Under the pieces are notes generated by a model that was not told the DNA's origin, searched no databases, and saw only the letters and a list, made by a program, of their open reading frames with translations. A program made the position numbers and the translations under genes. Source: a virus. Taken from it: DNA of 26,279 bases. Of the stretch, positions 1 to 26,279 are shown piece after piece; position 1 is the first letter of the stretch; each line of letters starts with the position of its first letter. The stretch is from the IMG/VR virus record IMGVR_UViG_3300006810_000328, positions 1 through 26,279 of that record, one strand, 5' to 3'.

Positions 1-59
1 AAAAAATTGTTAGTTCAATTCAATTACCTCTTGGAAGAAAAAAGAAATTAGGTAAATAA
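1..59 (+). CDS. C-terminal end of an unidentified upstream gene (partial)
   Basis: An open frame enters from the left edge (codons start at position 3) and ends at TAA 57-59. The last 18 residues are basic and finish with the tail LGRKKKLGK. The stop overlaps the ATG of the next small gene (TAATG), the same coupling used at several other junctions here, which supports a real gene end. In T4-like phages the position just before PAAR and gp25 is occupied by other baseplate or hub genes, but too little is visible to name it. Confidence 0.6.
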   Translation, partial: KIVSSIQLPLGRKKKLGK

Positions 60-199
60 TGGCGAAATTATCAAAAGGTTTTGTAAAACACGAAAGAATA
101 CCCAAAAAGACTTCTCAAGGCAAGAGTAAAAAGGTTAAAAGAAGTTCTATGAATAAACATAAGAAAAGATCATTTAAGATTTACAACAAACAAGGATAA
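59..199 (+). CDS. 46-residue highly basic protein
   Basis: A short frame starts at the ATG overlapping the previous stop (TAATG) and ends at TAA 197-199, three bases before the PAAR gene. The product is very basic, with about 17 Lys/Arg and hardly any acidic residues, and contains a central SSMNKHKKRSFK motif. From memory, similar tiny Lys/Arg-rich proteins with an 'SMNK..KR' core sit at this place in other marine T4-like phages, so I take it as a conserved gene. Its function is unknown. The charge would suit nucleic-acid binding or packing against an acidic partner in the baseplate, but that is a guess. There is no signal peptide or membrane segment. Confidence 0.7.
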   Translation: MAKLSKGFVKHERIPKKTSQGKSKKVKRSSMNKHKKRSFKIYNKQG

Positions 200-202
200 C
201 AA

Positions 203-502
203 ATGCCCGCAATCTGTCGAAAAGGTGATAGTTTAACCACTGGACACGTTTGTACAAGTGTGACGACTTTAGATACACCCTCACAATCGACAGTTAGAGC
301 AAATGGTATATTAATCGCAAGAGTTGGTGATCCTACTGTATCTCACGCTGCACCTCCAGCACCACCCTGTCCGCCACACGTTGCATATGTAAACGCAGGT
401 TCTTCAACTGTAAGAGTTGCTGGCGCATTTGTGGCAAGAATTGGTGATAGCGCAGATAGTGGTAATATGATAAGTGGTTCTTCAAATATCTTTGCGGGTT
501 AA
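203..502 (+). CDS. PAAR-motif tail-spike tip protein (T4 gp5.4-like)
   Basis: PAAR proteins form the sharp metal-bound cone that caps the central spike of contractile tails and helps pierce the host envelope. The 99-residue length is typical. The sequence shows the PAAR pattern: two similar beta-rich halves (STVRANGILIARVGD near 29-43 and STVRVAGAFVARIGD near 68-82), with potential zinc ligands Cys5, His15, Cys17, His48, Cys56 and His59 around a Pro-rich turn. An AAGGA ribosome site at 192-196 lies at good spacing from the ATG. It sits directly before gp25 and gp6, as expected of a baseplate-tip gene. The family assignment is firm; the metal ligands are inferred from the pattern. Confidence 0.9.
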   Translation: MPAICRKGDSLTTGHVCTSVTTLDTPSQSTVRANGILIARVGDPTVSHAAPPAPPCPPHVAYVNAGSSTVRVAGAFVARIGDSADSGNMISGSSNIFAG

Positions 503-504
503 TG

Positions 505-512
505 TATAAATA
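505..512 (+). promoter_or_regulatory. T4-type late promoter box TATAAATA before gp25
   Basis: An exact TATAAATA lies between the PAAR stop and the gp25 start. In T4 this octamer is the -10 element read by RNA polymerase carrying the late sigma factor gp55, and transcription begins about six bases downstream. Here that would place the first transcribed base at or next to the gp25 ATG (518). Confidence 0.65.
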
Positions 513-517
513 TTGTT

Positions 518-946
518 ATGCCTAGTTATAGTGTAGAAAACGTATCAAATAACTCTAAAAGAGCAAATAGAATCTATAAAGATTTAGATTTAGATTTTGG
601 TCGAAACACTGTGACTAATGATGTTAATAAATTAACTGATGTTGAAGCAGTTAAAAGAAGTGTTAGGAATTTAATACAAACTAATCACTTTGATAGACCA
701 TTCCATCCAGAGATTGGTGGTAATGTTAGAGCTTTATTATTTGAACCAATTTCACCTTTGACAGCTCTAAATCTACAAAGAAAGATAGAAGAAGTTTTAA
801 ACAACTTTGAACCAAGAGTTAAATTAACTCAAATTATTGCTACTCCTGACATTGACAGAAATCGTTATCAATTACAAATTAAATTTTATGTTATTGGTAT
901 TTCAACACCAATTACAGTAGAAACATTTTTAGAAAGATTAAGATAA
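518..946 (+). CDS. 25: Baseplate wedge / sheath initiator protein gp25
   Basis: gp25 joins the wedge core (gp6-gp7-gp53) and primes sheath polymerisation; it belongs to the GPW/gp25 family shared by phage tails and type VI secretion. The 142-residue length fits. Visible family marks are the YKDLDLDF stretch (20-27), the RPFHPEIGG loop (60-68), LLFEP (73-77) and the conserved EPR motif at 98-100 in NNFEPRVKL. It is followed one base later by gp6. No Shine-Dalgarno sequence precedes the ATG; instead a late promoter box ends six bases upstream, so the message may be leaderless. No other in-frame start fits the conserved N-terminus. Confidence 0.93.
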   Translation: MPSYSVENVSNNSKRANRIYKDLDLDFGRNTVTNDVNKLTDVEAVKRSVRNLIQTNHFDRPFHPEIGGNVRALLFEPISPLTALNLQRKIEEVLNNFEPRVKLTQIIATPDIDRNRYQLQIKFYVIGISTPITVETFLERLR

Positions 947-947
947 A

Positions 948-2801
948 ATGGCAAGTAATAAATTAGAAGTTTCAGAATTAGATTTTGATGATATAAAATC
1001 AAATCTTAAAACATTTTTACAAAATCAATCAGAGTTCCAAGATTACGACTTTGAAGGTTCTGGTTTTGCTGTACTATTAGACTTACTTGCTTACAATACA
1101 CACTATCTAGGTTTCAATGCGAATATGTTGGCAAATGAAATGTACCTTGACAGTGCTGATATTAGAAAAAATATTGTGTCATTAGCAAAGATGTTAGGTT
1201 ATACACCAACATCAGCTAAAGCACCAACAGCAACTATTGACATTCTTGTAAACAATGCAACAGGAACAAGTATAACAATGGATAAAGGTACAGCTTTTAC
1301 AACTACAGTAGATGGTACTTCATATGAGTTCATTACAAATGCTGCTCATAGTATTACAGCTTCAAATGGAATTTATCAGTTTTCAAATATACCTGTATAT
1401 GAAGGTACACTTGTCACATTTAAATATACAGTAGATAGTTCTGATCCTGACCAAAGATTTATTATTCCAAGTGTAAATGCCGATACATCAACACTAAAAG
1501 TATCTGTACAAAATTCAGTTTCAGATACAGCAACTTTAACATACAATTTAGCAGCTGGTATTACAAGTTTAGATAATACCTCAAGGGTTTATTTTTTACA
1601 AGAAGGTGAAGATGGCAAATTTGAAATTTATTTTGGTGATGGTGTTCTAGGTAAATCTTTATCAGATGGTAATATTGTTATATTAGAATATATTGTCACA
1701 AATAAAACTGAAGCAAATGGTGCATCAAACTTTTCACTATCAGGTAATATTGGTGGATTTACAAATGTTTCTATTACAACAAGTTCAAATGCTCAAGGTG
1801 GCGCAGAAGCTCAAACAAAAGAATCAATTAGATATAATGCACCATTACAATACTCAGCACAAGATAGAGCTGTCACAACTTCTGATTATGAAACTTTAGT
1901 ACAAGAAATTTATCCAAATGCACAATCAGTTTCAGCGTGGGGTGGCGAAGATGACGAAACACCAGTTTATGGTGTAGTAAAGATTGCGATTAAAGCAGCA
2001 TCAGGTTCCACTTTGACAGAAACTACAAAACAAAGTATTATTACTCAATTAAAAAAATATAATGTTGCATCTGTAAGACCAGAAATTATTGATCCAGAAA
2101 CAACTTCTATAATTTTAACTTCAAATGTAAAATATGATGAAAAGGCAACTACAAAAACTGCGGCAACTTTAGAATCAGAAATATTAACAAATTTAATTAA
2201 TTACAATAATAATACTTTACAAAAATTTGATAGTATGTTTAGATATTCAAAAGTAGTCGAATTAATTGATGATACGGACAATTCTATTTTATCAAATATA
2301 ACAACTTTAAAAATAAGAAAAGATTTTACTCCTACATTAAATAGTTCTACTAGATATGATGTATATTTTAGAAATGCATTATATAATCCACACACAGGTC
2401 ATAAAGCAAGTCAAGGTGGAATATTGGAATCTTCAGGTTTTAAAATACCTAATGATACAAAAGTTTATTACCTAGATGATGATGGTGCAGGAAATGTTAG
2501 AAGATATTATTTGGTTGGTTCAGTAAGAACATATGCTAATAATACTCAAGGAACAATCAATTATACTACTGGACAAATAACAATTAATTCTTTAAATGTT
2601 GCTTCAGTGGAAAATATTAGAGGATCAGCGGCAACTGCTATAGAATTAACGGTACAACCTAGTTCAAATGATATTGTTCCTGTAAGAGATCAAATTATTT
2701 CTATTGATACAACAAATTCATCTATCACTGCTATTGCTGACACCTTTGTGGGTGGATCTGCAGATGCAGGAGTAGGATACACAACAACACCTAGCTACTA
2801 A
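948..2801 (+). CDS. 6: Baseplate wedge subunit gp6 (baseplate J family)
   Basis: gp6 forms the inner ring of the T4 baseplate, its dimers linking neighbouring wedges and transmitting the conformational change on adsorption. At 617 residues it is close to T4 gp6 (660). The N-terminus has the typical 'F.DIKSNLKTFLQ...F.DYDFEGSGF..LLDLLAYNTHY' opening (about residues 12-52), and the middle contains the J-like region with YFGDGVLGKSLSDG (about 228-241) and the 'RAVTTSDYETLVQEIYP' segment (about 307-323). The start is one base after the gp25 stop, and its own stop overlaps the next ATG (TAATG), so the gene is translationally coupled on both sides. There is no signal of truncation. Confidence 0.92.
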   Translation: MASNKLEVSELDFDDIKSNLKTFLQNQSEFQDYDFEGSGFAVLLDLLAYNTHYLGFNANMLANEMYLDSADIRKNIVSLAKMLGYTPTSAKAPTATIDILVNNATGTSITMDKGTAFTTTVDGTSYEFITNAAHSITASNGIYQFSNIPVYEGTLVTFKYTVDSSDPDQRFIIPSVNADTSTLKVSVQNSVSDTATLTYNLAAGITSLDNTSRVYFLQEGEDGKFEIYFGDGVLGKSLSDGNIVILEYIVTNKTEANGASNFSLSGNIGGFTNVSITTSSNAQGGAEAQTKESIRYNAPLQYSAQDRAVTTSDYETLVQEIYPNAQSVSAWGGEDDETPVYGVVKIAIKAASGSTLTETTKQSIITQLKKYNVASVRPEIIDPETTSIILTSNVKYDEKATTKTAATLESEILTNLINYNNNTLQKFDSMFRYSKVVELIDDTDNSILSNITTLKIRKDFTPTLNSSTRYDVYFRNALYNPHTGHKASQGGILESSGFKIPNDTKVYYLDDDGAGNVRRYYLVGSVRTYANNTQGTINYTTGQITINSLNVASVENIRGSAATAIELTVQPSSNDIVPVRDQIISIDTTNSSITAIADTFVGGSADAGVGYTTTPSY

Positions 2802-5368
2802 TGGCAAAGTTTACAGATAAAATATCAAACCTGATTAATCAACAGGCGCCAGAGTTCGTATTAGAACAACACCCTAAATTTTTAGAGTTTATTAAAACGT
2901 ATTACACGTTTATGGAATCTGCTGAATTAGCAGTGACTTCAGTTCAAACAACAGATGGTATTTTATTAGAAACTGAAACTAATCAAACAAATGAATTATT
3001 ACTAGATGGTTCTCGTATTGATACAGATAGAACACAACTAGATGCTGGTGATAAGATAATATTAGAAAGTTCTACTTATGGTAAATTTACAAGAGGTGAA
3101 ACAGTTGTAGGTCAATCATCAAACGCAACTGCGACTGTTCTTGCTGAAGATTTAGGCAATGGTCGTTTATATATTTCAGCACAAGATAAATTTATTATCA
3201 ATGAAACTATTGTAGGTAGTTCTTCAAACGCTAGTGCAACTATTAATAATTATAAACCCAATCCAGTTCAAAATATACAAGAGTTATTAAATTTTAGAGA
3301 TCCTGATAAAGTTATATCTAATTTTTTAACTAAATTTAGAAATGAATTTTTAAACACTTTACCTGAAAGTTTAAATTCAAGTGTAGATAAAAGAAAACTA
3401 ATAAAAAATATTAAATCGCTGTATCGTGCTAAAGGTACCAATAGAGGACACGAATTATTTTTTAGATTATTATTTGATTTAGAATCAGAAACAATTTATC
3501 CTAGAGAAAATATTTTGAGAGCATCTGATGGAAAATGGGATACTAAAAAAATTTTAAGAGCAGTTGCAACTATAGGAGATACAACAGATTTAATAGGAAG
3601 AACGATTACAGGTCAAACATCATCAGCTACAGCTGTAGTTGAAAACGTATTTAAATTTCAAATAGGTGATGAGGAAGTATCGGAGTTTATTTTAAATGAA
3701 GATACTATATCAGGCACTTTTTTAATAGATGAAATTATTAGAGGAACAGAAAATGATGATGTAGATACATTTATAAAAGCAACAGTCACAGGTATTCCTT
3801 CATCAATTAGTATAACAAATTCAGGAACATTATATACATCTGGTGATAGTATAACTTTAAGTGGTGGTGGTACTGGTGCGGTTGTACAAGTTGATGCCGT
3901 AGGAAGAGGAAGTATATCAGATTTTGTAATACAAACTTCAGGTTCTGGTTATGAAATTGGAGATGATATTAATTTTACAAATACAGGAACGGGTGGAGGA
4001 TCCGCAAGAGCTAAAGTATCAGTTGTCAATGGTGGATTTACAATAGAAGAAAGTACATCATCTACGGAAGATCATATAATATTAGAAGATGAAACTACAA
4101 AAGGCGATCCATATACAGGAAATAAAATTGTACAAGAAACTGCTACAGGAATAGGCGACATTACAGATATAAGAATTATTAGTGGTGGAAGTAATTATCT
4201 ATCTCTACCTATTGTTGAAGTTGATGATACTAATGGTACAGGAGCAGAAATATACTGTTATGGTTCAGATATAGGAAGAATACAAAGTATAAAAATTATT
4301 GAGTCAGGAAAAAATTATGAGGATAGTCCATCTCCTCCTACTTTATTATTACCTAATTCTTTAGTCATAACAAATTTATCAGGTTCATTTACAATAGGTG
4401 AAACTGTGACTGGTATTGATAGTAGTTCGACAGTTGTGACAGGAATAGTTGTATCTTACAATACTAATACAAATGTTTTAAAATTATCTAATGCAACTGG
4501 TACCTTTGCTGAAAATTCTACATTTACAACAGATGGTGGAGCAACTGCAACAGTGTTTAAAAATAATTTAGGTTCTGCTACAGCAACTGTAGGATCAGTT
4601 GTAGATACTTCAGGTTCATTTATAAACCAAGATGGTTGGTTAGATGAAACTGCAATGAGATTACAAGATAGTTTATATTACCAAGACTTTTCTTATGTTA
4701 TCAAAGTTGGTCGTACAATTAATGACTGGCGAGATAGTTTCAAAAAAACTATGCACACATCTGGTTTTTATTTTACAGGTCAAGTAGATATTGCAACACA
4801 AGTAAACGCAAGATTAAGAGCGTTTACTACAATTAATTCTGGTTTAGATTTTGAAGGTGTTCAGTTAATAATCAATACTTTATTCTCAACAATCTTTGGA
4901 AGAAGACTAGGAACAACAAGTGATGGAACAACATTAAGAGTTAACGCAAATATAGGTGCTGATCCAGACTTTACAGATTCTACAATTACACCATTTGATA
5001 AAACTACAAGAGATTTAACTTTAAGTAAAGAATTAAAATATATTTTACAAGCTAAACCTAGAACAGCAATTAGAAACAACAACAAAATATATGGTGTAGG
5101 ATTAGGACCAAATTTAAAATCTTTATCGTCATTACTTTTAAGTACACATTTTGCTAGTCAAATACAAATACAAGATATAAACAATTTAAGATTGACAGGT
5201 ACTCAAAATACTGACATAGATGGTGAGTTAAATGAATTAGGTGATTTTGATTATAAATTAAAAACAAACTTTGCGATGCCTTCAGAAATATGGCAAATAT
5301 CTAATGATAGTTGGGACGAAGATCAAATAACTTTTGATACTAACACTATAACTTTTGATGTGGCCTAA
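2801..5368 (+). CDS. Large baseplate structural protein in the gp7 position
   Basis: This 855-residue protein lies exactly where T4 has gp7 (between gp6 and gp8), and equivalents in marine T4-like phages are virion structural proteins. The N-terminal part is helical and conserved in style (APEFVLEQHPKFLEFIKTYY, about 16-35; FLTKFRNEFLNTLPESL, about 175-191; a Lys/Arg-rich YRAKGTNRGHELFFRLLF segment after it). The middle is beta-rich and repetitive: at least four copies of an 'F..GETVTG.SSSATATV' unit (near 95, 130, 264 and 529) and two or three 'G..Y..GD.I...GGGTGA' units (about 345-480). The C-terminal third returns to non-repetitive sequence (RTINDWRDSFKKTMHTSGFYF). It is translationally coupled to gp6. 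I infer a wedge role from position; homology to T4 gp7 itself is not visible. Confidence 0.75.
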   Translation: MAKFTDKISNLINQQAPEFVLEQHPKFLEFIKTYYTFMESAELAVTSVQTTDGILLETETNQTNELLLDGSRIDTDRTQLDAGDKIILESSTYGKFTRGETVVGQSSNATATVLAEDLGNGRLYISAQDKFIINETIVGSSSNASATINNYKPNPVQNIQELLNFRDPDKVISNFLTKFRNEFLNTLPESLNSSVDKRKLIKNIKSLYRAKGTNRGHELFFRLLFDLESETIYPRENILRASDGKWDTKKILRAVATIGDTTDLIGRTITGQTSSATAVVENVFKFQIGDEEVSEFILNEDTISGTFLIDEIIRGTENDDVDTFIKATVTGIPSSISITNSGTLYTSGDSITLSGGGTGAVVQVDAVGRGSISDFVIQTSGSGYEIGDDINFTNTGTGGGSARAKVSVVNGGFTIEESTSSTEDHIILEDETTKGDPYTGNKIVQETATGIGDITDIRIISGGSNYLSLPIVEVDDTNGTGAEIYCYGSDIGRIQSIKIIESGKNYEDSPSPPTLLLPNSLVITNLSGSFTIGETVTGIDSSSTVVTGIVVSYNTNTNVLKLSNATGTFAENSTFTTDGGATATVFKNNLGSATATVGSVVDTSGSFINQDGWLDETAMRLQDSLYYQDFSYVIKVGRTINDWRDSFKKTMHTSGFYFTGQVDIATQVNARLRAFTTINSGLDFEGVQLIINTLFSTIFGRRLGTTSDGTTLRVNANIGADPDFTDSTITPFDKTTRDLTLSKELKYILQAKPRTAIRNNNKIYGVGLGPNLKSLSSLLLSTHFASQIQIQDINNLRLTGTQNTDIDGELNELGDFDYKLKTNFAMPSEIWQISNDSWDEDQITFDTNTITFDVA

Positions 5369-5370: not shown

Positions 5371-5538
5371 ATGATTATAAATAGTTCAAAAGATATTGTT
5401 GTCACAATAAATGATAAAATTTTGGAAGAAAATGAATATACTATTGATAAAAATGGTATTACATTTTCAAAGGCTCCAGAGGCAAACGATAAAATATCTA
5501 TAAAGAAAAGAATAGAAGATGGTAAAACAGATAATTAA
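5371..5538 (+). CDS. 55-residue small beta-rich protein
   Basis: An ATG two bases after the previous stop opens a 55-codon frame ending at TAA 5536-5538, overlapping the next gene by 20 bases. The core pattern, 'DIVVTINDKILEENEYTID..GITF.KAPEANDKISI', matches the small beta unit 'VIVTLNGVTQSKTDDFSISGTTLTMVVAPESTDDLVI' of the gene at 14943, a motif I know from many phage fibre-associated proteins (a short strand, 'NG', a strand, 'aP...D.I.i'). This match makes it likely to be translated. A TATAAATA box lies over codons 2 to 5, so transcripts starting there would not include its start codon; it would depend on read-through from upstream. Role unknown, probably fibre or baseplate decoration. Confidence 0.6.
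   Translation: MIINSSKDIVVTINDKILEENEYTIDKNGITFSKAPEANDKISIKKRIEDGKTDN
5376..5383 (+). promoter_or_regulatory. TATAAATA late promoter box inside a small gene
   Basis: The octamer matches the T4 late -10 element exactly. It overlaps the first codons of the 55-residue gene and would start transcripts near 5389, upstream of the fibre-like gene at 5519. It could be chance in AT-rich coding sequence, but every other exact box I found lies just outside a gene, which favours function. Confidence 0.45.
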
Positions 5539-6121
5539 TGTAGGTACTACGGTAAATGACGGAACAGGTAGTCCGATACGTACAGGTGGTCAATACATAA
5601 ATTCAAACTTCACAGAAATATATAACGCACTTGGTGATGGTTCAACAATTACATTTAACTCTGCCACAGTAGCAACATTAACTGGAAGTGAAACTTTAGA
5701 GAATAAAACAATTGATTTAGACTCTAATACAATCACTGGAACAACAGCAGAATTTAATACAGCACTACAAGATGGTTCTTTTGCGACTTTAGCGGGTTCT
5801 GAAGCAATTACAAATAAGACTTTTAATACTACTAATACATTTCCATCTATTTCTTTATTAGATGAGTCTTCAACATCAGGTTCAATATCATTAGGTGGTA
5901 CTTTAAGAATTGATGGTGATTCTAGTATAGACGTATCTGTGTCAAGTAGTACATATACTGTTTCATTACAATCAGGTATAGATGCAACTAAAATCGCTGA
6001 TGGTAGTGTATCTAATACAGAATTTCAACATTTGAATGGAGTGACATCAAATATTCAAACACAAATTGATGCAATTTCAGGAGGATTGCCAAGCTTAATA
6101 GCTGCTATCGCTTTAGGATAG
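5519..6121 (+). CDS. Short tail-fibre-like structural protein
   Basis: A 200-residue protein. The N-terminus, 'QIINVGTTVNDGTGSPIRTGGQYINSNFTEIYNALGDGS', is a widespread module of marine T4-like phage fibre proteins, usually starting a few residues before QIINVG, which supports the ATG at 5519 even though it overlaps the previous small gene by 20 bases. After it come fibre modules shared with the 820-residue fibre further right, including 'LTGSETLENKTI' and a 20-residue block that differs there at one position, then 'GVTSNIQTQID'. It ends in IAAIALG, close to the C-termini of two other short fibre proteins here. A late promoter follows directly. Likely a fibre or baseplate-attached adhesin; host specificity cannot be read. 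Confidence 0.8.
   Translation: MVKQIINVGTTVNDGTGSPIRTGGQYINSNFTEIYNALGDGSTITFNSATVATLTGSETLENKTIDLDSNTITGTTAEFNTALQDGSFATLAGSEAITNKTFNTTNTFPSISLLDESSTSGSISLGGTLRIDGDSSIDVSVSSSTYTVSLQSGIDATKIADGSVSNTEFQHLNGVTSNIQTQIDAISGGLPSLIAAIALG
5738..5797 (+). repeat. Fibre module copy 1 (20 residues, in the 200-aa protein)
   Basis: This block encodes [10 protein letters not shown] followed by [11 protein letters not shown] block differing by a single residue (Q to S) is encoded at 22603-22662, about 17 kb away, with mostly silent differences at the DNA level. This indicates a shared module kept by protein selection or by old recombination rather than a fresh duplication. Confidence 0.8.
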
Positions 6122-6161: not shown

Positions 6162-7625
6162 ATGCCAGCAATTATAACAAACAAATTCAGGATTCATAAC
6201 GCAGAACAATTTTATGAGTCTTTTTCAGAAGCGTCACCAAATGTCTATTATTTGACTATTGGAAGACCTCAAGCTTTTGGTACAAAAACAAGAGGAGACG
6301 GAAGAACAGTTAATGAAGGTTCTGATGTTTCGCCTTTAACACCAGCAGATTCAATCGCAGATGAATTTTATTATTATGATGATTTTCTAGCTGCTAAAAA
6401 AATTACTTCTTCAGATATAGGTTATGTAGTTCCTAGAAGAAACTGGACGACTGGCACAGTTTATGATTATTACAGACACGACTACGGAAATAGAATTACA
6501 GGTACAACAACTACACAAACAGCTGATAGTGGTGCTTCTACATTATGGGACGCAACTTTTTATGTTATGACTGAAGACTTTAATGTTTATAAGTGTTTAG
6601 ATAACAACAGTGGAGCAGCTTCTACAGTTGAACCTACAGGTACATCAACATCAATATTATCTACAGGTGATGGATATAAGTGGAAATATATGTACACTTT
6701 ATCAGCATCTCAACAATCAAATTTCTTATCTACAGATTTTATGGGTGTTGGTACAGATGCAACAGTATCTTCTGCGGCAGTTGATGGAGCTATTAACATT
6801 GTAAAAATTAAATCAGCAGGTTCTGGTGCTTCAGTAAATAATACATTTACAAACATAGATATTCACGGTGATGGTACTGGTGGAAAAGTTTCTGTCACTA
6901 CTACAGCTGGTTCAGTATCAGCAGTTTCTGTGACAAATGTTGGTTCAGGTTATACTTACGCTTATATTAGAAACGCAGACATAGTGACTGCTGGCGCAAC
7001 TGACTTAACAGGTGCTGAATTAGATTGTATTATAGAACCTAAAGGCGGACACGGATTTAATGCCGTACAAGAATTAGGTGGATACTTTGTAATGTTAAAT
7101 ACGACCTTTGAAGGTGCTGAAACTTCAAACTCTGGTGACTTCACAACAGATAATGATTTTAGACGTGTTGCTTTATTGCGTGATCCAGATAGTGGTGGTT
7201 CAGCTGCTAGTTCAACAACTTTAAGAGGTACAAAAGCAATATTCTTATCTAGTGCTTCCGGTACATTTACAGTTGATGAAGAAATTAATCAAGCGACAAC
7301 AGGCGCTGTAGGTAAAGTTGTAGAACACGACACAGTTAATAGTATATTATACTATATACAAACAAGATTTAATGATGAGGGAATAGATAGTGATGGTGAT
7401 TTAACAGCGTTTTCTGGTACAAATACAATTACAGGACAAAGTTCATCAGTCACTGCAACTCCATCTAGTTCAACAACCACAGTAGATAGTATTTCATTTA
7501 CAAGTGGTTATGCTGGTTCAGAAATTGATGAAGATACTGGTGATGTACTTTATGTTGAAAATAGATCGCCAATTACAAGAGCTTCAGATCAAACTGAGAA
7601 TGTTAAATTAATAATTGAATTTTAG
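6162..7625 (+). CDS. 8: Baseplate wedge subunit gp8
   Basis: gp8 is a peripheral wedge component that binds gp7 and gp10 in T4. The 487-residue protein shows the N-terminal signature of marine T4-like gp8: 'ITNKFRIHNAEQFYESF' (about 5-21), 'YYLTIGRPQAF' (about 29-39) and 'DIGYVVPRRNWTTGTVYDYYRHDYG' spread over about 85-109, followed by 'FYVMTEDFNVYKCLDNN' and 'GDGYKWKYMYTLS'. It is longer than T4 gp8 (334) because of inserted beta repeats (an 'F..DE.INQATTGAVGKVV' unit near 369 and 'ITGQSSSVTATPS' near 424) like those in the two giant neighbours. It has its own late promoter and ribosome site, and is followed at 11 bases by the 2031-residue protein with a GAGGGA ribosome site. Confidence 0.88.
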   Translation: MPAIITNKFRIHNAEQFYESFSEASPNVYYLTIGRPQAFGTKTRGDGRTVNEGSDVSPLTPADSIADEFYYYDDFLAAKKITSSDIGYVVPRRNWTTGTVYDYYRHDYGNRITGTTTTQTADSGASTLWDATFYVMTEDFNVYKCLDNNSGAASTVEPTGTSTSILSTGDGYKWKYMYTLSASQQSNFLSTDFMGVGTDATVSSAAVDGAINIVKIKSAGSGASVNNTFTNIDIHGDGTGGKVSVTTTAGSVSAVSVTNVGSGYTYAYIRNADIVTAGATDLTGAELDCIIEPKGGHGFNAVQELGGYFVMLNTTFEGAETSNSGDFTTDNDFRRVALLRDPDSGGSAASSTTLRGTKAIFLSSASGTFTVDEEINQATTGAVGKVVEHDTVNSILYYIQTRFNDEGIDSDGDLTAFSGTNTITGQSSSVTATPSSSTTTVDSISFTSGYAGSEIDEDTGDVLYVENRSPITRASDQTENVKLIIEF

Positions 7626-7635: not shown

Positions 7636-10600
7636 ATGCCAAGTCCATCAGACTTTAACCTCTCGCCATATTATGACGACTTTACGGAAAGTAAGAAGTT
7701 TCATAGAATACTTTTTAGACCGTCATTTGCAGTTCAAGCGAGAGAATTAACACAGTCACAAACAATCTTACAAAATCAGATTGAAAGAGTATCTGATCAC
7801 CTTTTTGATAAAGGCGCTATGGTTATTCCTGGCGAGATTGGATATGATTTAAATTACTATGCTGTTAAGTTAAGTAGCATTGGAAGTGGTTTTACTTTAT
7901 CAGATTTTAATACAGGAGATATTTTAACAGGTGGTACTTCTGGTGTCACAGCAACAATTGTAAATAAAGTTGCAACTGATGGAACAGATCCTGATACCCT
8001 TTATGTAAAATATACAGCAACAGGAACAAATAATTCAGATATAGTTTTTTCTGACAGTGAAACAATTACATCAGACGCAGATACTCCAGTGACTGCTGTA
8101 GTAGATACAACTGCTACTGGTTGTGCCGCAGAAATACAATCTGGTGTATATTATATAAATGGATTTCAAGTACAAGTAGATAATCAAGTTTTAATATTAG
8201 ACAAATACACTAATACGCCTAGTTATAGAGTTGGTTTAACTGTCACGGAATCTTTTGTGACACCAAATGATGATGCAAGTTTAAATGATAACGCTGCTGG
8301 TTCATCAAATGTAAATGCTCCAGGCGCTCACAGATTTAAAATAGATTTAACATTAGCTAAAAGAACATTAACATCAACTGAAGATTCAAACTTTGTAGAA
8401 TTATTAAGACTATCAAATGGTGTTTTACAAAATCAAGTTAGAACAACTGAATATGCTGTATTAGAAGATACACTTGCAAGAAGAACCTTTGATGAATCCG
8501 GTGATTATTCTGTAAAAGAATTTGATTTAGATTTAAGAGAAAGTTTAATATCAGGAAACAATAGAGGTATTTTCACAGCATTAGAGGGTGGATTAGAATC
8601 AAAATATGTTGCTGGATTAGGTCCAGGTAAAGCATATGTTAGAGGTTATGAAATCGAAACTATAGGAACAAAATTTATACAAGCAAATAAAGCAAGAGAG
8701 TTTGATACACAAAATAATTTTAACACTAGATTTGATTTAGGTAATTTTGTAAATGTCACAAATGTTTATGGATCGCCAGATATTGGATTTGTGACTGGTG
8801 ATGTAGAGGCATTCAAAAGAGTTAATTTGTATAAAGAAGCAACTAGTGTAAGAGGAACTGAAAACGCAAGTTCAGAATCAAGTATTAACACAATCGGTAG
8901 AGCGAAATCCAGAGGTTTTGAATATTCATCTGGTACTGCAACATCAAATATATTCGCAAGTTCAAGTTTAACATCAGCAATATACAAACATTATTTGTTT
9001 GATATTAATATGTTTACGCACTTGAATATCACAACTAATCAAAGTTTTACAACAGGTGAAAAAATCACAGGTAATACATCAGGTGCTATCGGTACTTTTG
9101 AAAGTATTTCTACCACAGAAAATCAAACAGTAAATGCTATTTCATCAGCAAGTCCAGGAGTGGTGACTATATCTGGTGGTCATAATTTTAAAGAAGGTCA
9201 ACAAATTACATTAGCAGGTACTTACGAAGTAGATTCAACTGCTGAAACTTCAAATGTTTATACTGTAAGAAATCCAGATGCAACTACTTTTGAGTTGTAT
9301 GATACTGATGGAACTACAGCAATAAATGTCACAGGATTTACATCAGCAACAGCAACACACGGCGTTGTTATTATTTCTAGCACAAATGGTACATTTACAG
9401 CAGGAGAAACTATTACTGGTGGAACATCAAGTAGTACAGCTGTTATACAATCAGATGCTGTAGGATTAAACGGAGTACAAACTTTTGATTTTCCTAAAGT
9501 TAAACAAATTGGAATGGCAGGATCACCAACTTATACTGCTGACACAGCATTAGATTTTACAGGCGGTGACAATTATGTAATTACAGGAACACTTGATATT
9601 GGTTCAGGTTCAGCAAGTGTGACAGGTATTAATACAAGATTTACAACAGATTTATCAGTAGGCGATTCTATCTCATTTACAAATGATAGTGGTAATACAG
9701 AAACTAAAATAGTTGAAGCTATTATTTCAAATACTAGTTTAACATTAACAAGTGTCACTGCTGCTGCTTCTACTAAAACAATTGCAACTAGAAGAAGAAC
9801 AAAATTACAATCATCAGAAAAAAATATTTCTATATTTGAATTACCTTATTCAACTATTAAAACATTAAAAACAACTGCAAATTCTGGTATTACAGATACT
9901 AACTTTGAAGTTAGAAGACATTTTACAGCAACATTATCATCAAATGGTGATGCTACAATTACGGCAGGTACAAATGAAACATTTAGTGCTTTAGCTGAAT
10001 TAGATTTTTCAGTTTCAATTATGACTTTAGGTGCAGGTACTTCAGGTGCTGTAGGTGATGTGTTAAGTTTATCAGGAAATAACCACGAAGGTGACCCTAT
10101 TTTTGTATTAGGTGGTTCTCCATCAGGTAAAACTTTAACATTAGATTTTGGTACTGATTATCAAGGTCATAAAGTTAAAATATTAGCAACTGTTAGTAGA
10201 AGTGTTGCAGGTTCAAAAACTAAAACTTTAAATTCAAACTCAACAGTACAAATATCTACTTTAGCAGCAGTTAATAAACAAGGTGGTATAAGTTTAGGTA
10301 AAGCAGATATTTACCAATTAAATGCTGTTTATATGTCAGCAGATTTTAGTACAAATGCTACAGCAAGTGATACAAACATCACAGATAGATTTGAATTAGA
10401 TAACGGACAAAGAGATAATTACTATGACGTTGGTAGAATTAAATTAAAACCAGGTGAATTAACGCCAACTGGTAGAATATTAATAGATTTTGATTATTTC
10501 TCTCACGGTTCAGGTGATTATTTTGATGTTGACTCATATTCGGGTGTAGTTGATTATGAAAATATACCATCATATAAATCTGATACAACTGGTAAATCAT

Positions 10601-17174: not shown

Positions 17175-17951
17175 ATGCAGAATCATTTTAGTTATTATTA
17201 TTTTAAGTCTGCTTTAACACCAGATCAATGTCAACGTATAATTGATTACGGTAATTCTTTAATTGAAAAAGAAAAAAAGCAAGGTCATAGTACAGCTGCT
17301 GTGACATTTGGAAATAATCATAAACAAGCTTTTGATGAAAAAGGTATTAATGTTCAGCCTTTAGGTGATAAAACACACGAAGATGTACAGAAAGAATTAA
17401 ATACTGATATTACTACAGGCAAAACTTATGTTAGAGATAGTGAAGTTGCTTGGTTTAATGATCAGTGGGTGTATGATCTAATTTGGCCTTTTCTAACCGA
17501 AGCAAATGAAAAATCTGGTTGGAGATATGATTTAGATTTTGGAGAAGATTTCCAATTTACAAAATATGGATTAAATCAATTTTATGGTTGGCATTCTGAC
17601 GGAGGGGGTTGTCATATGAATGCTTACAAAAGATTAATTCCTGGTGTGACGCCAAAAAATAAAAATGGAGAGTATGATTCTCATTATACATCTAATCAAA
17701 ATTTAATAGGTAAAATAAGAAAAATATCTATGACTATTAATTTAAATAAACCTGGTGAATATGAGGGAGGTAATTTAAAATTTGATTATGGTCCACACGC
17801 AGAGGGAAAAAGATTCCACGAGTGTGAAGAAATAAGACCTCAAGGCTCTATTATATTCTTTCCATCATATACATATCATCAAGTCACTCCAGTGACAAAG
17901 GGTACAAGATATTCTTTAGTATTATGGATATGTGGAAAACCTTTTAGATAA
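17175..17951 (+). CDS. 2OG-Fe(II) oxygenase 1, prolyl-4-hydroxylase-like
   Basis: These enzymes use Fe(II), O2 and 2-oxoglutarate to hydroxylate a substrate, releasing CO2 and succinate. In this 258-residue protein the facial triad reads His140-x-Asp142 in 'FYGWHSDGGG' and His235 in 'FFPSYTYHQVTPV', with Arg245 in 'KGTRYSLVLWICG' as the 2OG-binding arginine. 'ISMTINLNKPGEYEGGNLKF' (about 184-203) is the core strand region typical of the P4Hc/PKHD hydroxylases. All key residues are present, so it should be active. No Shine-Dalgarno sequence is visible before the ATG in the AT-only 16-base gap. The substrate is unknown; P4Hc-type relatives act on protein side chains. Confidence 0.88.
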   Translation: MQNHFSYYYFKSALTPDQCQRIIDYGNSLIEKEKKQGHSTAAVTFGNNHKQAFDEKGINVQPLGDKTHEDVQKELNTDITTGKTYVRDSEVAWFNDQWVYDLIWPFLTEANEKSGWRYDLDFGEDFQFTKYGLNQFYGWHSDGGGCHMNAYKRLIPGVTPKNKNGEYDSHYTSNQNLIGKIRKISMTINLNKPGEYEGGNLKFDYGPHAEGKRFHECEEIRPQGSIIFFPSYTYHQVTPVTKGTRYSLVLWICGKPFR

Positions 17952-17977
17952 AACTAAATATGAAAAAAGGAAACGAA

Positions 17978-18742
17978 ATGGAAACAGAAAATCAAACCAA
18001 ACACCCTGCCGCTAAATTCTTTGAAGAAAATGGTTGGGTAAAAATAGAAAAAGTGATTGATAGTAAAATGGCTTTTTTATTATATCATCACGTACAGTTG
18101 GCAGCAACAAGATTAACATATTTGGATAATTTTTTAGGATTTGGAAATTATAATACAGATGTGTGGGGTAGTTTTACAGATAAACAAGCACCAGGTGATT
18201 TTAGTAGATATGGTGATTTAATTTTTGACAGTTTAATGAATTTAGTATTAGGACAAATGGAAAAATATACAGGTAAAAAATTAGTGCCTACATACACATA
18301 TCATAGATTATATACAAGAGGAACAGAGTTAACAAGACATAAAGATAGACCTAGTTGTGAAATATCTACTACAATGTGTTTAGGATACGATATAGATAAT
18401 TTAGATAAACAAAAATATTCAAATTGGAATTGGCCTATGTATGTTGGTCCTAAAACTGGTGAATTGGGAACAAAAGGAACTCCAATAACTTTGGAACCAG
18501 GTGATATGATTATCTATCGTGGTTGTGAAGTGGAACACTGGCGTGAACCATATATTGGAAATAATCACGCACAAGTATTTTTACATTATAATGAAAAAGA
18601 TGGAAAAAATCATAACGTATATGATGGAAGACCTTGTTTAGGAGTTCCAAGATTAGTTGATACATTAAAACAAAATTATAATGTAGAAGAAAAAGAAGAA
18701 GACATTTTTTTTAAACAAGAGGAAAATCAAATAGTATATTAA
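17978..18742 (+). CDS. 2OG-Fe(II) oxygenase 2
   Basis: A 254-residue double-stranded beta-helix oxygenase. The triad reads His121-x-Asp123 in 'ELTRHKDRPSCE' and His187 in 'GCEVEHWREP', preceded by the 'LEPGDMIIYRG' strand that normally precedes the distal His. 'VPTYTYHRLYTRGTEL' is the conserved strand before HxD. The usual 2OG-binding Arg about ten residues after the distal His is not obvious in 'NNHAQVFLHYN'. I chose the ATG at 17978 because an AAAAGGA ribosome site lies seven bases upstream; an ATG at 17960 is also in frame and would add six residues. The N-terminal 'HPAAKFFEENGWVKIEKVID' fits the phytanoyl-hydroxylase-like class. Substrate unknown. Confidence 0.82.
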   Translation: METENQTKHPAAKFFEENGWVKIEKVIDSKMAFLLYHHVQLAATRLTYLDNFLGFGNYNTDVWGSFTDKQAPGDFSRYGDLIFDSLMNLVLGQMEKYTGKKLVPTYTYHRLYTRGTELTRHKDRPSCEISTTMCLGYDIDNLDKQKYSNWNWPMYVGPKTGELGTKGTPITLEPGDMIIYRGCEVEHWREPYIGNNHAQVFLHYNEKDGKNHNVYDGRPCLGVPRLVDTLKQNYNVEEKEEDIFFKQEENQIVY

Positions 18743-18746: not shown

Positions 18747-19406
18747 GTGAATAAAATAGATTTTGAAAATAGAAAAAATATACCTCAAGTTTGGAATATA
18801 AGAACAATAAAAGATAATCCAATGTTTCCATTTGTTCTTATAGAAAATTGGTATACACCTGAAGAAGAAAAAGCAGTTTGGAAAGAATTAGAATATTATT
18901 CTAGTAATCCTATTGATAGAGCCGAAGGTGGTATTGTAGCGAGAGATGAAGATGGAAAAGAAAAGGGAAAACATTATAGATTTTATTTAGATAAAATTTA
19001 TTCACAACAGGGAAGAGAACAATCTAATATTTTAAATTTTACATACAAACAAAAAATGTTAGAATTACATCATAAGATAAATGAATGTGGTCACTATGGA
19101 AGATCATTTTTTTCAAGTAAAAGTATTACTTCTTTTGTATCTTATTATGAAAATAATGATTTTTATAATTCTCATTATGACTCTTATCACTGGACAAATT
19201 TAGTTTGGTTTGTGAAAGAACCTAAAAAATTTGAAGGTGGCGATTTAATATTTGAAGAATCAAATACAAAAATAACTTTAAAACATAATAGAGCAATTAT
19301 GTTTCCCTCAATGTTTTTACATAAATCAACACCTATTAAATTTAATCAACAATCAAATGGAAGTGAAGGAAAATTTACCATAACTCATTTCTATTATGCA
19401 GATTAG
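18747..19406 (+). CDS. 2OG-Fe(II) oxygenase 3 (GTG start)
   Basis: A 219-residue protein that starts with GTG four bases after the previous stop, so it is probably coupled; no ATG before Met26 is available and the N-terminal residues fit the gene limits. The triad reads His143-x-Asp145 in 'FYNSHYDSYHW' and His192 in 'IMFPSMFLHKSTP', with 'FEGGDLIFEES' (162-172) as the intervening strand typical of PKHD-type hydroxylases. A 2OG-binding Arg after the distal His is not clear; Lys209 in 'GKFTITHFYY' occupies the likely place. The N-terminal 'FVLIENWYTPEEEKAVWKELE' is a common opening for phage oxygenases. Base composition is more AT-rich than in the structural genes. Confidence 0.8.
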   Translation: MNKIDFENRKNIPQVWNIRTIKDNPMFPFVLIENWYTPEEEKAVWKELEYYSSNPIDRAEGGIVARDEDGKEKGKHYRFYLDKIYSQQGREQSNILNFTYKQKMLELHHKINECGHYGRSFFSSKSITSFVSYYENNDFYNSHYDSYHWTNLVWFVKEPKKFEGGDLIFEESNTKITLKHNRAIMFPSMFLHKSTPIKFNQQSNGSEGKFTITHFYYAD

Positions 19407-19413
19407 AAATATA

Positions 19414-20034
19414 ATGATTAGTCCTATAAATTATAAAAAATTTGAATTGTTTCCAACGCCTGTTTACAAATCAAAAATAGAAGTACAAGATGAATGGTTG
19501 AAATTGTGTGAGACCACAGAATACGAAAGAATGAAGACAGGAAATGGTGATATTTCTAAAAATAGAAAGATATTAAATGATTTAAATATAAAAAATGATA
19601 TAGAAGATCATCTAAATGTTTATGTTAGAGATTGGTTAAAAGTACATTGGAAAACTGAATTTTATTTAACATCATCTTGGTTAGTAAAACACAAAAAAGG
19701 AGATTGGGCACAATTACATCATCATGCTAATTCCTTAATTAGTGGTGTATATTATTTAAAAACACCTGAAAATTCTGGTAATATAAAGTTTCATAAATTT
19801 TTTAATAAAAACTTATTTGATGAAACTTTACGATTTGATTTTACAGATGATAATTTTATAAATGCTGAAAGTGTGAGTTTTGATGTAAACGCAGGAGATA
19901 TAATATTATTCCCATCTCACTTAACTCATTCTGTAGATGAAAATTTTAATGATGAAACAAGATATTCACTTGCGTTCAATTATTTTTGTAGAGGGTCATT
20001 TGGTAAAGATGAATATGCATTGACTATTAAATAA
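19414..20034 (+). CDS. 2OG-Fe(II) oxygenase 4, TIGR02466-like with altered HxD
   Basis: A 206-residue protein (numbered from the ATG at 19414; an in-frame ATG at 19396 would overlap the previous gene and add six residues, and neither has a clear ribosome site). 'FELFPTPVYKS' at the N-terminus and 'HHHANSLISGVYYLKTPENSGNIKF' (about 102-126) are marks of the TIGR02466 putative oxygenase family common in marine phages. The distal 'FPSHLTHSVDENFNDETRYSLAFNYF' supplies His172 and Arg183. The Asp/Glu of HxD is replaced: the motif reads HHHAN, so the second ligand would be His or Asn, as is usual in this family. Activity has to be regarded as unproven. Ends in TAATG overlap with the next gene. Confidence 0.78.
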   Translation: MISPINYKKFELFPTPVYKSKIEVQDEWLKLCETTEYERMKTGNGDISKNRKILNDLNIKNDIEDHLNVYVRDWLKVHWKTEFYLTSSWLVKHKKGDWAQLHHHANSLISGVYYLKTPENSGNIKFHKFFNKNLFDETLRFDFTDDNFINAESVSFDVNAGDIILFPSHLTHSVDENFNDETRYSLAFNYFCRGSFGKDEYALTIK

Positions 20035-20555
20035 TGAAAAATTTTATATTTGTAAAAGAAAATGTTTTAGATGAAAAAGAATGTGAAGATATTATAAAAT
20101 ATTGTAGCGATAAAACTAATCCAAGTGATTTTGATTATTTGAATTATGATTGTTATGATTTTGATAACTCACATTATCTTTTTAAAAAAATATTACCAAT
20201 ATTACAAGAATATAAAAATACATATCCTGAAATAGATAAAACGGCATCTATTTGGGATTTAACTAGTTTAAGATTTAAAAGTTTTGAACCAGGTAAAGGT
20301 TATACTGGTTGGCATTCAGAACATTGTTTATCAAAACCTGATAGAGTTTTAAATGTTCAAATTTATCTATCTAATCATAGATGTGGAACTGAATTTTATA
20401 ATGGTGATGTAATAATGTCAAAAGTAGGTAAGTTGGCCATCTTCCCATCATACTTTACTCACACACACAGAGGTCAAATTTGTCCTGATAATAAACCTAG
20501 ATATATAATAACAGGTTATGTGACATTTATGAAAAAAGGACCTGAAGAAGACTAA
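20034..20555 (+). CDS. 2OG-Fe(II) oxygenase 5 with HxE ligand pair
   Basis: The smallest of the five (173 residues), coupled to the preceding gene by TAATG. It has a typical opening ('FIFVKENVLDEKECEDIIKYC'), a strand 'LTSLRFKSFEPGKGYTGWHSEH' with His94-x-Glu96, 'NVQIYLSNHRCGTEFYNGD' in the core, and the distal His143 in 'IFPSYFTHTHRG', with Arg156 in 'KPRYIITGYV' as the likely 2OG anchor. Glu instead of Asp in the facial triad is accepted in some members of the superfamily. It is compact, close to the minimal jelly-roll catalytic core. The substrate is unknown. It closes the oxygenase cassette before a new promoter-like box. Confidence 0.8.
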   Translation: MKNFIFVKENVLDEKECEDIIKYCSDKTNPSDFDYLNYDCYDFDNSHYLFKKILPILQEYKNTYPEIDKTASIWDLTSLRFKSFEPGKGYTGWHSEHCLSKPDRVLNVQIYLSNHRCGTEFYNGDVIMSKVGKLAIFPSYFTHTHRGQICPDNKPRYIITGYVTFMKKGPEED

Positions 20556-24541: not shown

Positions 24542-24550
24542 GGAGATAGA

Positions 24551-25300
24551 ATGGCAGAAAAAACACCAATAAGAACGGTCTTTGACGGAGACGGCAACGC
24601 CACAGGTCTAGCAGAGTTTCAATCTGGTGAGTTTATAGGTGTCACGTATGGTGGTATTGGTCGTGCAACATTAACTACAAACTCAATATTATTAGGTAAT
24701 GGAACAGATGCTGTTCAAATGTCACCTATACAAATAGATGGTTCAACTATTTCATCGTCAGATTCTACTTTAATTACAATTAATGATGGATTGAACGTCA
24801 CTGGTAATTTATCAGTAGATGGTAATATGACAGTCACAGGAACTTTGACTGCTGTTAATTCTCAAACAATTAATATTACAAATTCATTTACTTTTGAAGG
24901 TTCGACAGCAGATGGTAATGAAACTCAATTAACAGTCACAGATCCAACTGCAGATAGAACAATTACTTTACCAGATGCAACTGGTCACATTCCAGTATTC
25001 GCAACATCAATGACAACAGCGATTACAGATGGATCAGCAAATCAAGTTTTAACAACTGATGGTTCAGGCGGTTTAACATTTGAATCCGTATCAACAGATT
25101 TACAAGAATCAACATTAACAACAGCACCAGCTTCTGAAGGTGATTTTGATTTAAGTTATGATCCTACTCAAACAACTCAGGAAACACCGTTTGAGGCAGT
25201 AGGCGCTGATGCTTTTGGAATTTCAACTTCATCTGTTGTTTTTAGTTATAATGACCCAGTTGGTTCAACAAATACAATAGATTTAGGAGCATTTTCATAG
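24551..25300 (+). CDS. Tail-fibre protein (249 aa)
   Basis: The N-terminal 'PIRTVFDGDGNATGLAEFQSGEFIGVTYGGIGRATLTTNSILLGNG' (about 5-50) is a fibre module with the typical 'ygGtG...l..nsillGnG' turn. It is followed by 'LNVTGNLSVDGNMTVTGTLTAVNSQTI' (about 79-105), a repeated 'l.v.Gnl.V.G..tv.G' shaft pattern, then 'RTITLPDATGHIPVF' and 'ANQVLTTDGSGGLTFESV'. The last part ('VVFSYNDPVGSTNTIDLGAF') looks like a small end domain. An AGGAGAT ribosome site lies just before the ATG. Part of the fibre run that begins at 21226; probably co-assembled with it. Confidence 0.82.
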   Translation: MAEKTPIRTVFDGDGNATGLAEFQSGEFIGVTYGGIGRATLTTNSILLGNGTDAVQMSPIQIDGSTISSSDSTLITINDGLNVTGNLSVDGNMTVTGTLTAVNSQTINITNSFTFEGSTADGNETQLTVTDPTADRTITLPDATGHIPVFATSMTTAITDGSANQVLTTDGSGGLTFESVSTDLQESTLTTAPASEGDFDLSYDPTQTTQETPFEAVGADAFGISTSSVVFSYNDPVGSTNTIDLGAFS

Positions 25301-25311
25301 GACTAAATCGT

Positions 25312-25319
25312 TATAAATA
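25312..25319 (+). promoter_or_regulatory. Late promoter box TATAAATA before the last fibre gene
   Basis: Exact octamer in the 39-base gap; the start of transcription near 25325 leaves an AGGAGA ribosome site (25325-25330) and then the ATG at 25340. Same geometry as at gene 8. Confidence 0.75.
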
Positions 25320-25339
25320 ACAATAGGAGATTAGAATAA

Positions 25340-25801
25340 ATGCCAACAGTATTACAATTTAGAAGAGGAACTACAGCACAGAACAATAGTTTTACTGGTG
25401 CTGCTGGGGAAATTAGTATTGATACTACATTAGATACTTTAAGAGTACACGATGGTTCTACAGCAGGTGGTTTAGAGCTTACTCAAAATACAGCAACTCA
25501 AACACTAACAAATAAAACTTTAACTAGTCCAACAGTTAATACACCTACTATTACAGGTGATACTACTTTTAGTGATGGTGCTTATGATTTTGATATTGCG
25601 TCACACGATGGTTCTAACGGACTAAAATTAGGTGGAACTTTAGTGACTTCAACTGCTGCTGAATTAAATTTATTAGATGGTGTCACAGCAACAACTGCTG
25701 AACTAAACTACACTGACGGTGTGACTTCTAATATTCAAACACAATTAGACGATAAAGCAGCAAAATCTTTCGCAATAGCACAAGCCATCGCTTTAGGATA
25801 A
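25340..25801 (+). CDS. Short tail-fibre protein with AIAQAIALG tail (153 aa)
   Basis: The N-terminus 'TVLQFRRGTTAQNNSFTGAAGEISIDTTLDTLRVHDGSTAGG' (about 3-44) is the widespread phage fibre opening ('lq.RRGt...n..ftga.GEi..dt...tlrvhDG...gG'). The shaft has 'TLTNKTLTSPTVNTPTITG', 'AAELNLLDGVTATTAELNYTDGV' (two copies of 'taELN.lDGVt') and 'SNIQTQLDDKAAKS', all common trimeric-fibre units. It ends in FAIAQAIALG, the tail shared with the genes at 13957 and, shortened, at 5519. It has its own late promoter and is followed by another, so it forms a single-gene unit before gene 13. Confidence 0.85.
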   Translation: MPTVLQFRRGTTAQNNSFTGAAGEISIDTTLDTLRVHDGSTAGGLELTQNTATQTLTNKTLTSPTVNTPTITGDTTFSDGAYDFDIASHDGSNGLKLGGTLVTSTAAELNLLDGVTATTAELNYTDGVTSNIQTQLDDKAAKSFAIAQAIALG

Positions 25802-25815
25802 TACTCTCTTATTCT

Positions 25816-25823
25816 TATAAATA
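25816..25823 (+). promoter_or_regulatory. Late promoter box TATAAATA before gene 13
   Basis: Exact octamer 18 bases before the neck gene, with a GGAGA ribosome site (about 25833-25837) in the leader. It probably opens the neck and sheath operon that continues past the right edge. Confidence 0.78.
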
Positions 25824-25841
25824 GTAGGGATTGGAGATTGT

Positions 25842-26279
25842 ATGGCAACACCAGCTAGTAGAGAAACACTAAAACAATACGCTTTAAGAGCTCTCGGTAA
25901 ACCCGTTATAGAGATAAATGTAGATGACGACCAGTTAGAAGATAGACTGGACGAAGCTTTACAATATTTCGCACAATATCACTATGATGGTATAAGAAGA
26001 ACTTACTTAAAGTATCAATACACACAGGTTGATTACGATAGAATTAATACTGATACAACAGAATCAGTCACTAAAAATTCAGTCACTACATCTTGGAAAG
26101 AAGCAAATGGTTTTATTGTAGTACCAGAAAGTGTAATTTCAGTTATCAATATATTCCCATATTCAAATAAAGGTAATCTAAACTTATTTGACGTAAGATA
26201 CCAATTAAGATTAAATGACCTTTATGATTTTTCTTCAACATCAATTATTAACTATGATGTTGTATTAAGACATTTAGAT
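25842..26279 (+). CDS. 13: Neck protein gp13 (N-terminal part, runs off the window)
   Basis: gp13 and gp14 form the neck that closes the filled head and joins it to the tail. The visible 146 residues begin 'MATPASRETLKQYALRALGKPVIEINVDDDQLEDRLDEALQYFAQYHYDGIRRTYLKY', a very characteristic opening of gp13 in marine T4-like phages (Leu/Gly-Lys-Pro, 'EINVDDDQ..DR.DEAL.Y....HYDG'). 'GFIVVPESVISVINIFPYSNKGNLNLFDVRYQLRLNDLYDF' follows in the expected order. The reading frame is open to the last base. The start is set by the GGAGA ribosome site and the fit to the family. The C-terminal half lies outside the window. Confidence 0.88.
   Translation, partial: MATPASRETLKQYALRALGKPVIEINVDDDQLEDRLDEALQYFAQYHYDGIRRTYLKYQYTQVDYDRINTDTTESVTKNSVTTSWKEANGFIVVPESVISVINIFPYSNKGNLNLFDVRYQLRLNDLYDFSSTSIINYDVVLRHLD

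Follow-up and report, generated by a model that had tools for sequence, protein, structure and literature searches.

The window analysed here, a stretch of 26,279 bases that makes up the entire virus record IMGVR_UViG_3300006810_000328, carries T4-like structural genes as well as 2OG-Fe(II) oxygenase genes grouped in a block, and it contains no copy of the five-base palindrome GTWAC (W being A or T, that is, GTTAC and its reverse complement GTAAC). This absence, its recurrence among related phages and its probable cause are the subject of this report. All annotated genes of the window lie on one strand (+). A PAAR-motif protein (203–502; PF05488, E = 1e-6) is followed by baseplate wedge proteins resembling gp25 (518–946; PF04965) and gp6 (948–2801; PF21379; phrog_219, E = 6e-193), and then by an 855-aa baseplate or connector protein (2801–5368; phrog_3465), which served as a marker for the tree of relatives. 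Next are a protein with a T4 gp9/10-like N-terminal domain (5519–6121; PF07880), a gp8-like baseplate wedge protein (6162–7625; PF09215) and a 2031-aa structural protein with DUF4815 (7636–13731; PF16075, E = 2.7e-60), at the position of which Mosig and HTVC008M have a gene annotated as VrlC. The closest match to the 855-aa protein is in Pelagibacter phage Mosig (47.9% identity), followed by HTVC008M (36.5%) and the Methylophilales phage Melnitz (33.7%). The window belongs to a T4-like marine phage akin to the pelagimyophages Mosig and HTVC008M and to Melnitz, with SAR11 or a similar low-GC marine bacterium as its presumed host.

An earlier note, made from the letters of the window alone, had claimed that GTTAC and GTAAC are wholly missing, and counting bears this out. 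A maximal-order Markov model of the 26,279 bases predicts 37.9 occurrences, and the deficit is the largest by z-score among all 5-mers; in 1000 synonymous codon shuffles of the 24,957 coding bases the expectation is 74.6 ± 5.0, with a minimum of 54. The words that the note had called plentiful are so (ATTAC 87, TTTAC 78, TTAAC 74, ATAAC 37, GTCAC 52, GTGAC 41). Against synonymous shuffles, and counted with their complements, the single-substitution neighbours ATWAC, CTWAC and TTWAC occur at 1.02, 0.86 and 1.01 of expectation, and GAWAC, GCWAC and GGWAC at 1.21, 1.09 and 1.11, while GTSAC (S being C or G) is in excess by a ratio of 2.85 (90 vs 31.9 expected). Both sense orientations are empty, GTTAC with 36.3 and GTAAC with 38.7 expected by the same shuffles. 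Because the neighbouring words are normal and both orientations are lost, what is avoided is the double-stranded palindrome GTWAC.

The mark left on codon choice is equally sharp. Across the 25 window genes, valine (Val) is written GTT or GTA in none of 73 cases before ACN, as opposed to 418 of 460 in other contexts; tyrosine after GGT, AGT or CGT is TAT in all 23 cases and TAC in none; and asparagine, where the preceding codon ends in GT, is AAT in all 39 cases and AAC in none. In the 2031-aa gene, the 19 Val-Thr (valine-threonine) pairs comprise 13 with GTC and 6 with GTG, just as the note had read them, the codon list giving GTCAC at 8242–8246 (+) and GTGAC at 8257–8261 (+), sites at which a GTWAC has been displaced; outside such pairs, Val in this gene is GTT 57, GTA 55, GTG 7 and GTC 1. 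A further reading of the note, that glycine-tyrosine pairs are written GGTTAT, holds for two pairs in a gene that has only three.

The same genes in other phages provide a comparison. Among 80 loci matched by the 855-aa protein, GTWAC is absent from five (L002 and L003, of the window's own population, and L005, L010 and L011) and low in two (L008 and L009), and the remaining 73 stand at no less than 0.96 of expectation. Among 77 new loci matched by the 2031-aa protein, five have none (L300–L302, of the window's population, L303 and L315), and the remaining 72 are at 0.76 or above. Thus GTWAC is normal in 145 of the 157 related loci with these genes. The zero state extends to larger sequences, in that G004, the 37-kb contig containing L010, has 0 sites vs 66.1 expected, and synonymous shuffles of the window, G004, L303 and L315 predict 74.9, 77.9, 42.9 and 32.6 sites where none is found. 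Cultured AT-rich phages show no such deficit: the observed and expected counts are 302/296.7 for the whole Mosig genome and, over 50 kb each, 197/164.6 for HTVC008M, 184/156.3 for Melnitz, 115/99.8 for P-SSM2 and 54/62.4 for T4. A general codon-pair effect, which the earlier note had named as one outcome that would undo its claim, is therefore rejected.

The relatives are metagenome contigs, known from assemblies rather than raw reads, and an artefact of assembly or library preparation, such as digestion or the selective loss of reads, might be suspected for that reason. Yet a single metagenome yields both normal and purged sequences (in 3300044723, L002 has 0/7.6 and L023 has 21/19.4; in 3300012920, L009 has 5/31.8 and L029 has 37/27.2), and displaced GTSAC codons occupy the positions where the missing sites would be. 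We regard such an artefact as extremely improbable.

How the sites were lost can be followed in alignments of four pairs of contigs. G003 and G008 share 86.2% identity across 16.9 kb, and G003 retains 4 of the 53 GTWAC sites of G008, as against 46–80% of the occurrences of eight control words; 24 of the lost sites turned into GTSAC. Retention is 0 of 59 for the window against L305, 0 of 43 for G004 against G010 and 0 of 65 for L315 against L314, and across the four pairs the eight control words, GTSAC being left aside, are retained at 24–80%. Of the 220 sites in the four pairs, 4 are retained and 82 changed at more than one letter. The single-letter losses depend on codon phase, with the central W changing to S in 72 of 98 cases in phase 0, the last letter changing in 19 of 27 in phase 1 and the first letter in 9 of 9 in phase 2, so that most are the change that is synonymous in its own phase. 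Because the losses follow codon phase, the purging amounts to selection acting largely through synonymous routes and not to mutational bias. These data also bear on the proposal that the cause is a codon-pair effect, an RNase cutting GUWAC in mRNA, or mutation by deamination of methylated cytosine. The one-strand gene layout of the window partly confounds effects on RNA with effects on DNA, which leaves such a proposal some room; most relatives with the same proteins nevertheless have normal GTWAC, the equal loss of both sense orientations disfavours cleavage of RNA, and cytosine deamination cannot yield the main exit, from central W to S. We consider this whole class of explanations very improbable.

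The loss has happened more than once. The gp855 tree of the 855-aa protein (FastTree, 107 rows) contains 98 normal, 7 zero and 2 low rows, and the gp2031 tree of the 2031-aa protein (FastTree, 89 rows) contains 79, 9 and 1, the window's population contributing several near-identical rows to each. On both trees, three changes are needed to account for the zero state, and starred branches force each of them. A single origin of the loss was tried and is ruled out by the approximately unbiased (AU) test, which rejects a single zero clade with p-AU = 8.7e-11 on a subset of 22 of the 89 rows, picked after the tree had been seen; on the same subset it also rejects the unions of the window group with L315, of the window group with L010, and of L010 with L315. 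With complete loss in three separate clades and partial loss in a fourth, the pattern reads, by parsimony and given the normal outgroups, as three gains of avoidance and one partial gain, and the trees alone would be compatible as well with gains of avoidance followed by losses. The two trees place some rows differently (by gp2031, and not by gp855, L305 lies close to the window), so modules seem to reassort; every purged contig is free of GTWAC along its whole span. The avoidance of GTWAC at the level of DNA is real, strong and has evolved repeatedly.

The fourth clade deserves separate attention, since it consists of two partly purged sisters, G003 with 10 GTWAC sites vs 72.9 expected and L008 with 6. 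Fifteen sites of G008 can be aligned in both; thirteen were lost to an identical new word in both sisters, one was lost to differing words, and one was lost in G003 and is GTWAC in L008. Given the shared replacement words at 13 of the 15, most of the loss predates the split of G003 and L008. The two also have one GTTAC in common where G008 and L021 have GTTTC, and this is a site gained after or during the purge. The pair probably represents an unfinished or relaxing purge, under a pressure that varies over time.

The earlier note had left the choice between a host restriction or methylation site and a nuclease of the phage itself, one that would cut host DNA at GTWAC and spare its own site-free genome. 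The second alternative would demand total absence, as is seen in the window; endonucleases are said, in the available text of one report, to be common in pelagiphages (PMC10504331); and the confirmed zero genomes (the window, G004, L303, L315 and others) are contigs that cover the structural half only, so that the replication region could carry such an enzyme. It predicts no intermediates, and G003 and L008 are intermediates that keep or regain sites, which a phage with an unprotected self-cutting enzyme would hardly survive. Nor do the structural halves contain an obvious candidate: by Pfam, no nuclease or methylase family was found in the 25 window proteins or in the predicted proteins scanned from three other contigs (for G004 20 of 41, for L303 3 of 20, for L315 2 of 14), the rest of the proteins of these three being mostly homologues of structural genes, and no HNH match (PF01844) was found in the zero contigs G001, G004, G023, G024 and G025. 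Two window proteins do have hits to PHROG families that bear the label "DNA endonuclease V" or "DNA endonuclease", at 18747–19406 (+; PF13640) and 20034–20555 (+; PF13640 at E = 5e-5, under Pfam's cut-off; phrog_61), though both are matched better by 2OG-Fe(II) oxygenases, and the endonuclease labels are probably an error of the library. Of the note's two alternatives, then, restriction is favoured and a self-sparing phage nuclease, given the sites carried by the partly purged sisters, fits poorly; we judge it distinctly unlikely.

The two proteins just mentioned belong to the oxygenase block. In the same stretch are a 2OG-Fe(II) oxygenase at 17175–17951 (+; PF13640), an auxiliary protein bearing the PHROG label "ferrochelatase" (17960–18742, +; phrog_2954) and a 2OG-Fe(II) oxygenase at 19396–20034 (+; PF13759). 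Upstream of these lie a Gly-rich protein with a TIG domain (15194–16699, +; PF21722, PF01833) and a 123-aa protein to which profile searches assign no family (16787–17158, +); the latter occurs in the purged or partly purged G003, G004, L300, L301 and L303 and in one normal locus, though normal loci often do not cover this region. At the far end of the window are a protein with the N-terminal domain of the major tropism determinant (25340–25801, +; PF18454, E = 9e-12) and the neck or head-tail adaptor Ad2 (25842–26279, +; phrog_211), truncated by the window end.

GTWAC is not the only word that the window avoids. The note's claim that the effect is specific stands insofar as GTAC (112), GATC (58) and GTTAAC (3) are present and the neighbouring words are normal; it does not extend to CTWAG (0 vs 16.1 by synonymous expectation), CATG (2 vs 26.0), GGATG/CATCC (3 vs 14.6) and CTSAG (5 vs 15.1), which are avoided as well, and GANTC shows a moderate deficit (46 vs 77.1). 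GTWAC, CTWAG, CATG and GGATG/CATCC together may reflect several restriction specificities. We surveyed 148 contigs, either at least 12 kb long or specially chosen, with the cultured controls included and some contigs overlapping or near-identical, and called a word near-absent where the ratio of observed to expected was at most 0.08 with an expectation of at least 15. By this measure CATG is near-absent from 50 contigs, GATC from 24, ACGT from 18, TCGA and CACTG/CAGTG from 11 each, GATGC from 9, CTAAG/CTTAG, GTAAC/GTTAC, CGCG and TGCA from 7 each, ACAGT/ACTGT from 5, CCGG, CGACG/CGTCG and CATCC/GGATG from 3 each, and nine further words from one each. Palindromes make up 7 of the 8 four-letter words so found, vs 16 of 136 word classes, and palindromes with a degenerate centre make up 8 of the 15 five-letter words, vs 32 of 512 (classes counted by hand). 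Several of these words are known restriction targets (of NlaIII, TaqI, TspRI, Hpy99I, FokI and SfaNI); Tsp45I, which recognises GTSAC, has the complementary degenerate centre and hence the opposite subset of GTNAC from GTWAC. The words differ even between close neighbours, TGCA being wholly absent from near relatives of the window by gp2031, in which GTWAC is normal (L304 0/44.6, L305 0/56.9 and L073 0/42.6, L073 and L304 coming from one contig). In the 45,950-base contig G016, CATG stands at 0 vs 114.3 expected. Given this mosaic of mostly palindromic, restriction-like purged words, a restriction-type agent is the natural reading for GTWAC.

We therefore consider it likely that the purging reflects selection by an endonuclease recognising GTWAC in double-stranded DNA, which would most plausibly be a Type II restriction-modification system encoded by some of the hosts. 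A phage lineage long exposed to an enzyme with this degenerate five-base-pair palindrome as its target would face a potentially lethal cut at each site, and sites would be replaced mostly by mutations that preserve the protein, by changing W to S in the middle where the site falls on Val|Thr codons, the final letter where it is read xGT|WAC and the first where it is read xxG|TWA|C.

Phenomena of this kind are already known. Complete or almost complete elimination of sites, mostly of orthodox Type II enzymes, occurs in about one tenth of viral genomes according to the available text of PMC6286503 (2018); the present case is like those in that a short palindromic site is wholly absent from a large phage fragment, and unlike those described there in that a single phage group has lost the site in separate clades and includes a partly purged sister pair. 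Depletion of GANTC, as the accessible part of PMC9516812 describes it, divides the pelagiphage tree, so that there too a depleted motif differs between related SAR11 phages; GANTC is in that account a cell-cycle methylation motif, and its deficit in the window is not an absence. MaeIII of Methanococcus aeolicus (GTNAC; PMC10113651, as far as its available text goes) has the outer letters and spacing of GTWAC, and such a specificity is ruled out, for it covers GTSAC, which is enriched in the window. A Dnd phosphorothioate target was also considered and is ruled out, the Bermanella motif in the accessible text of PMC12193691 and PMC10470545 being GATC and not GTAAC/GTTAC. GTNAC is a widely distributed methylated motif in PMC5390034, the available text of which does not contain GTWAC, and PMC6329791 does not mention GTWAC either. 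In the open-licence literature, to which the search was confined (subscription papers and REBASE lay outside it), no GTWAC restriction specificity was found described, and within that literature the specificity appears to be undescribed.

Several observations weigh against the restriction reading. GATGC and GGATG, both non-palindromic, are avoided in several contigs too. No enzyme or methylation with GTWAC specificity was seen, the purged contigs having been scanned in their structural half, and a host scan of genome contigs returned only two phage contigs, in metagenome-assembled genomes named Flavobacteriaceae and Deltaproteobacteria, where they are probably misbinned. If the hosts are SAR11, the available text of PMC7029224 and PMC9516812 has their genomes nearly without restriction systems, and, to the contrary, that of PMC10504331 mentions host restriction endonucleases in HTCC1062. 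Finally, GTWAC is moderately low in many replication-region loci of relatives, and some of the variation in that region accordingly has a different, or a weaker, cause.

This last point emerges from scans with other genes. With the terminase, loci having less than half of the expected GTWAC number 1 of 80 and 0 of 41 new; with the Mosig DNA polymerase (L179–L258), 27 of 80 fall under half of the Markov expectation and only 3 of 80 reach or exceed it; with the G013 DNA polymerase, 3 of 80 are under half and 16 of 80 at or above expectation. No locus in any of these scans lacks GTWAC (0/80, 0/41 new, 0/80 and 0/80). Since Mosig as a whole has normal GTWAC, the low values around the polymerase are at least partly regional; they may come from the base composition of the region or from avoidance that is only partial, and either way the same-gene comparison is untouched. 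The replication region was also searched with two patterns of conserved peptides in which Val-Thr was required as GTSAC. The first gave nine stretches, four of them at 0.23–0.33 of expectation and one, L470, with no site, where only 2.9 are expected in 2.5 kb; L470 is a piece of the same contig as L458, which has 13/31.9. The second gave at least 120 matches, and among the 115 new loci listed, 7 have no GTWAC (5.5–9.3 expected in each) and 30 more are under half. Being selected for the trait, short, and from a region often low in GTWAC, these zero loci are not counted as purged lineages.

The search for an enzyme was carried into this half as well. The nine replication-region loci examined, seven of them with zero GTWAC and two nearly so, share no nuclease or methylase gene. 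Among the records searched by family, PF01555 has no match in 12; PF02086 has two in 16 records (G020 and G022) and none in five further ones, and the loci of G020 and G022 are not zero (L296 34/21.3, L272 35/28.2, L545 2/5.2); the single HNH match in 10 records is in G029, not a zero contig. Other genes of this half do concern DNA modification. In G013 and L378, an MT-A70 adenine methyltransferase (L378:4099–4638) directly follows the gene for DNA polymerase (L378:4751–7252) on its downstream side. The replication half of relatives often carries such a methyltransferase, with MT-A70 matches in 145 of the loci examined, overlapping loci being counted apart. A Mom-family protein (PF25680, E = 1.4e-51) lies at L580:3965–4744, between ferredoxin and DNA polymerase genes on a pelagimyophage-like contig, with Mom-family matches in 10 loci examined, one of them partial (Melnitz). 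Mom modifies adenine in phage Mu. Since MT-A70 is frequent and the Mom-like gene occasional, the phage group also encodes enzymes that likely modify DNA. A stand-alone endonuclease VII-type gene, seen in no other locus examined, lies within the clamp-loader cluster at L570:2071–2592.

The enzyme may also come from other hosts, from accessory host systems or from competitors that bring in nucleases. An endonuclease borne by competing co-infecting phages, prophages or satellites, and not by the host chromosome, would make the purged sites compatible with hosts in which restriction systems are reportedly lacking, and a role of phage endonucleases in superinfection is suggested in the available text of PMC10504331; no element bearing such an endonuclease was found, and no search aimed at one was made. 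We hold this source to be rather unlikely. Equally unlikely, in our view, is the broader idea of phage-phage conflict, in which mobile endonucleases of changing specificity, GTWAC included, borne by co-infecting phages or satellites, would have written the mosaic of purged words in streamlined marine hosts nearly without restriction.

For the biology of these phages, the purged words would register which enzymes have cut their DNA, and GTWAC offers a clean natural experiment, in which the same genes have normal counts in most lineages and none in three clades, with one sister pair in between. The finding predicts a GTWAC restriction specificity. If the hosts are indeed SAR11, which the available accounts describe as nearly free of restriction systems, then who restricts these phages becomes a testable question.

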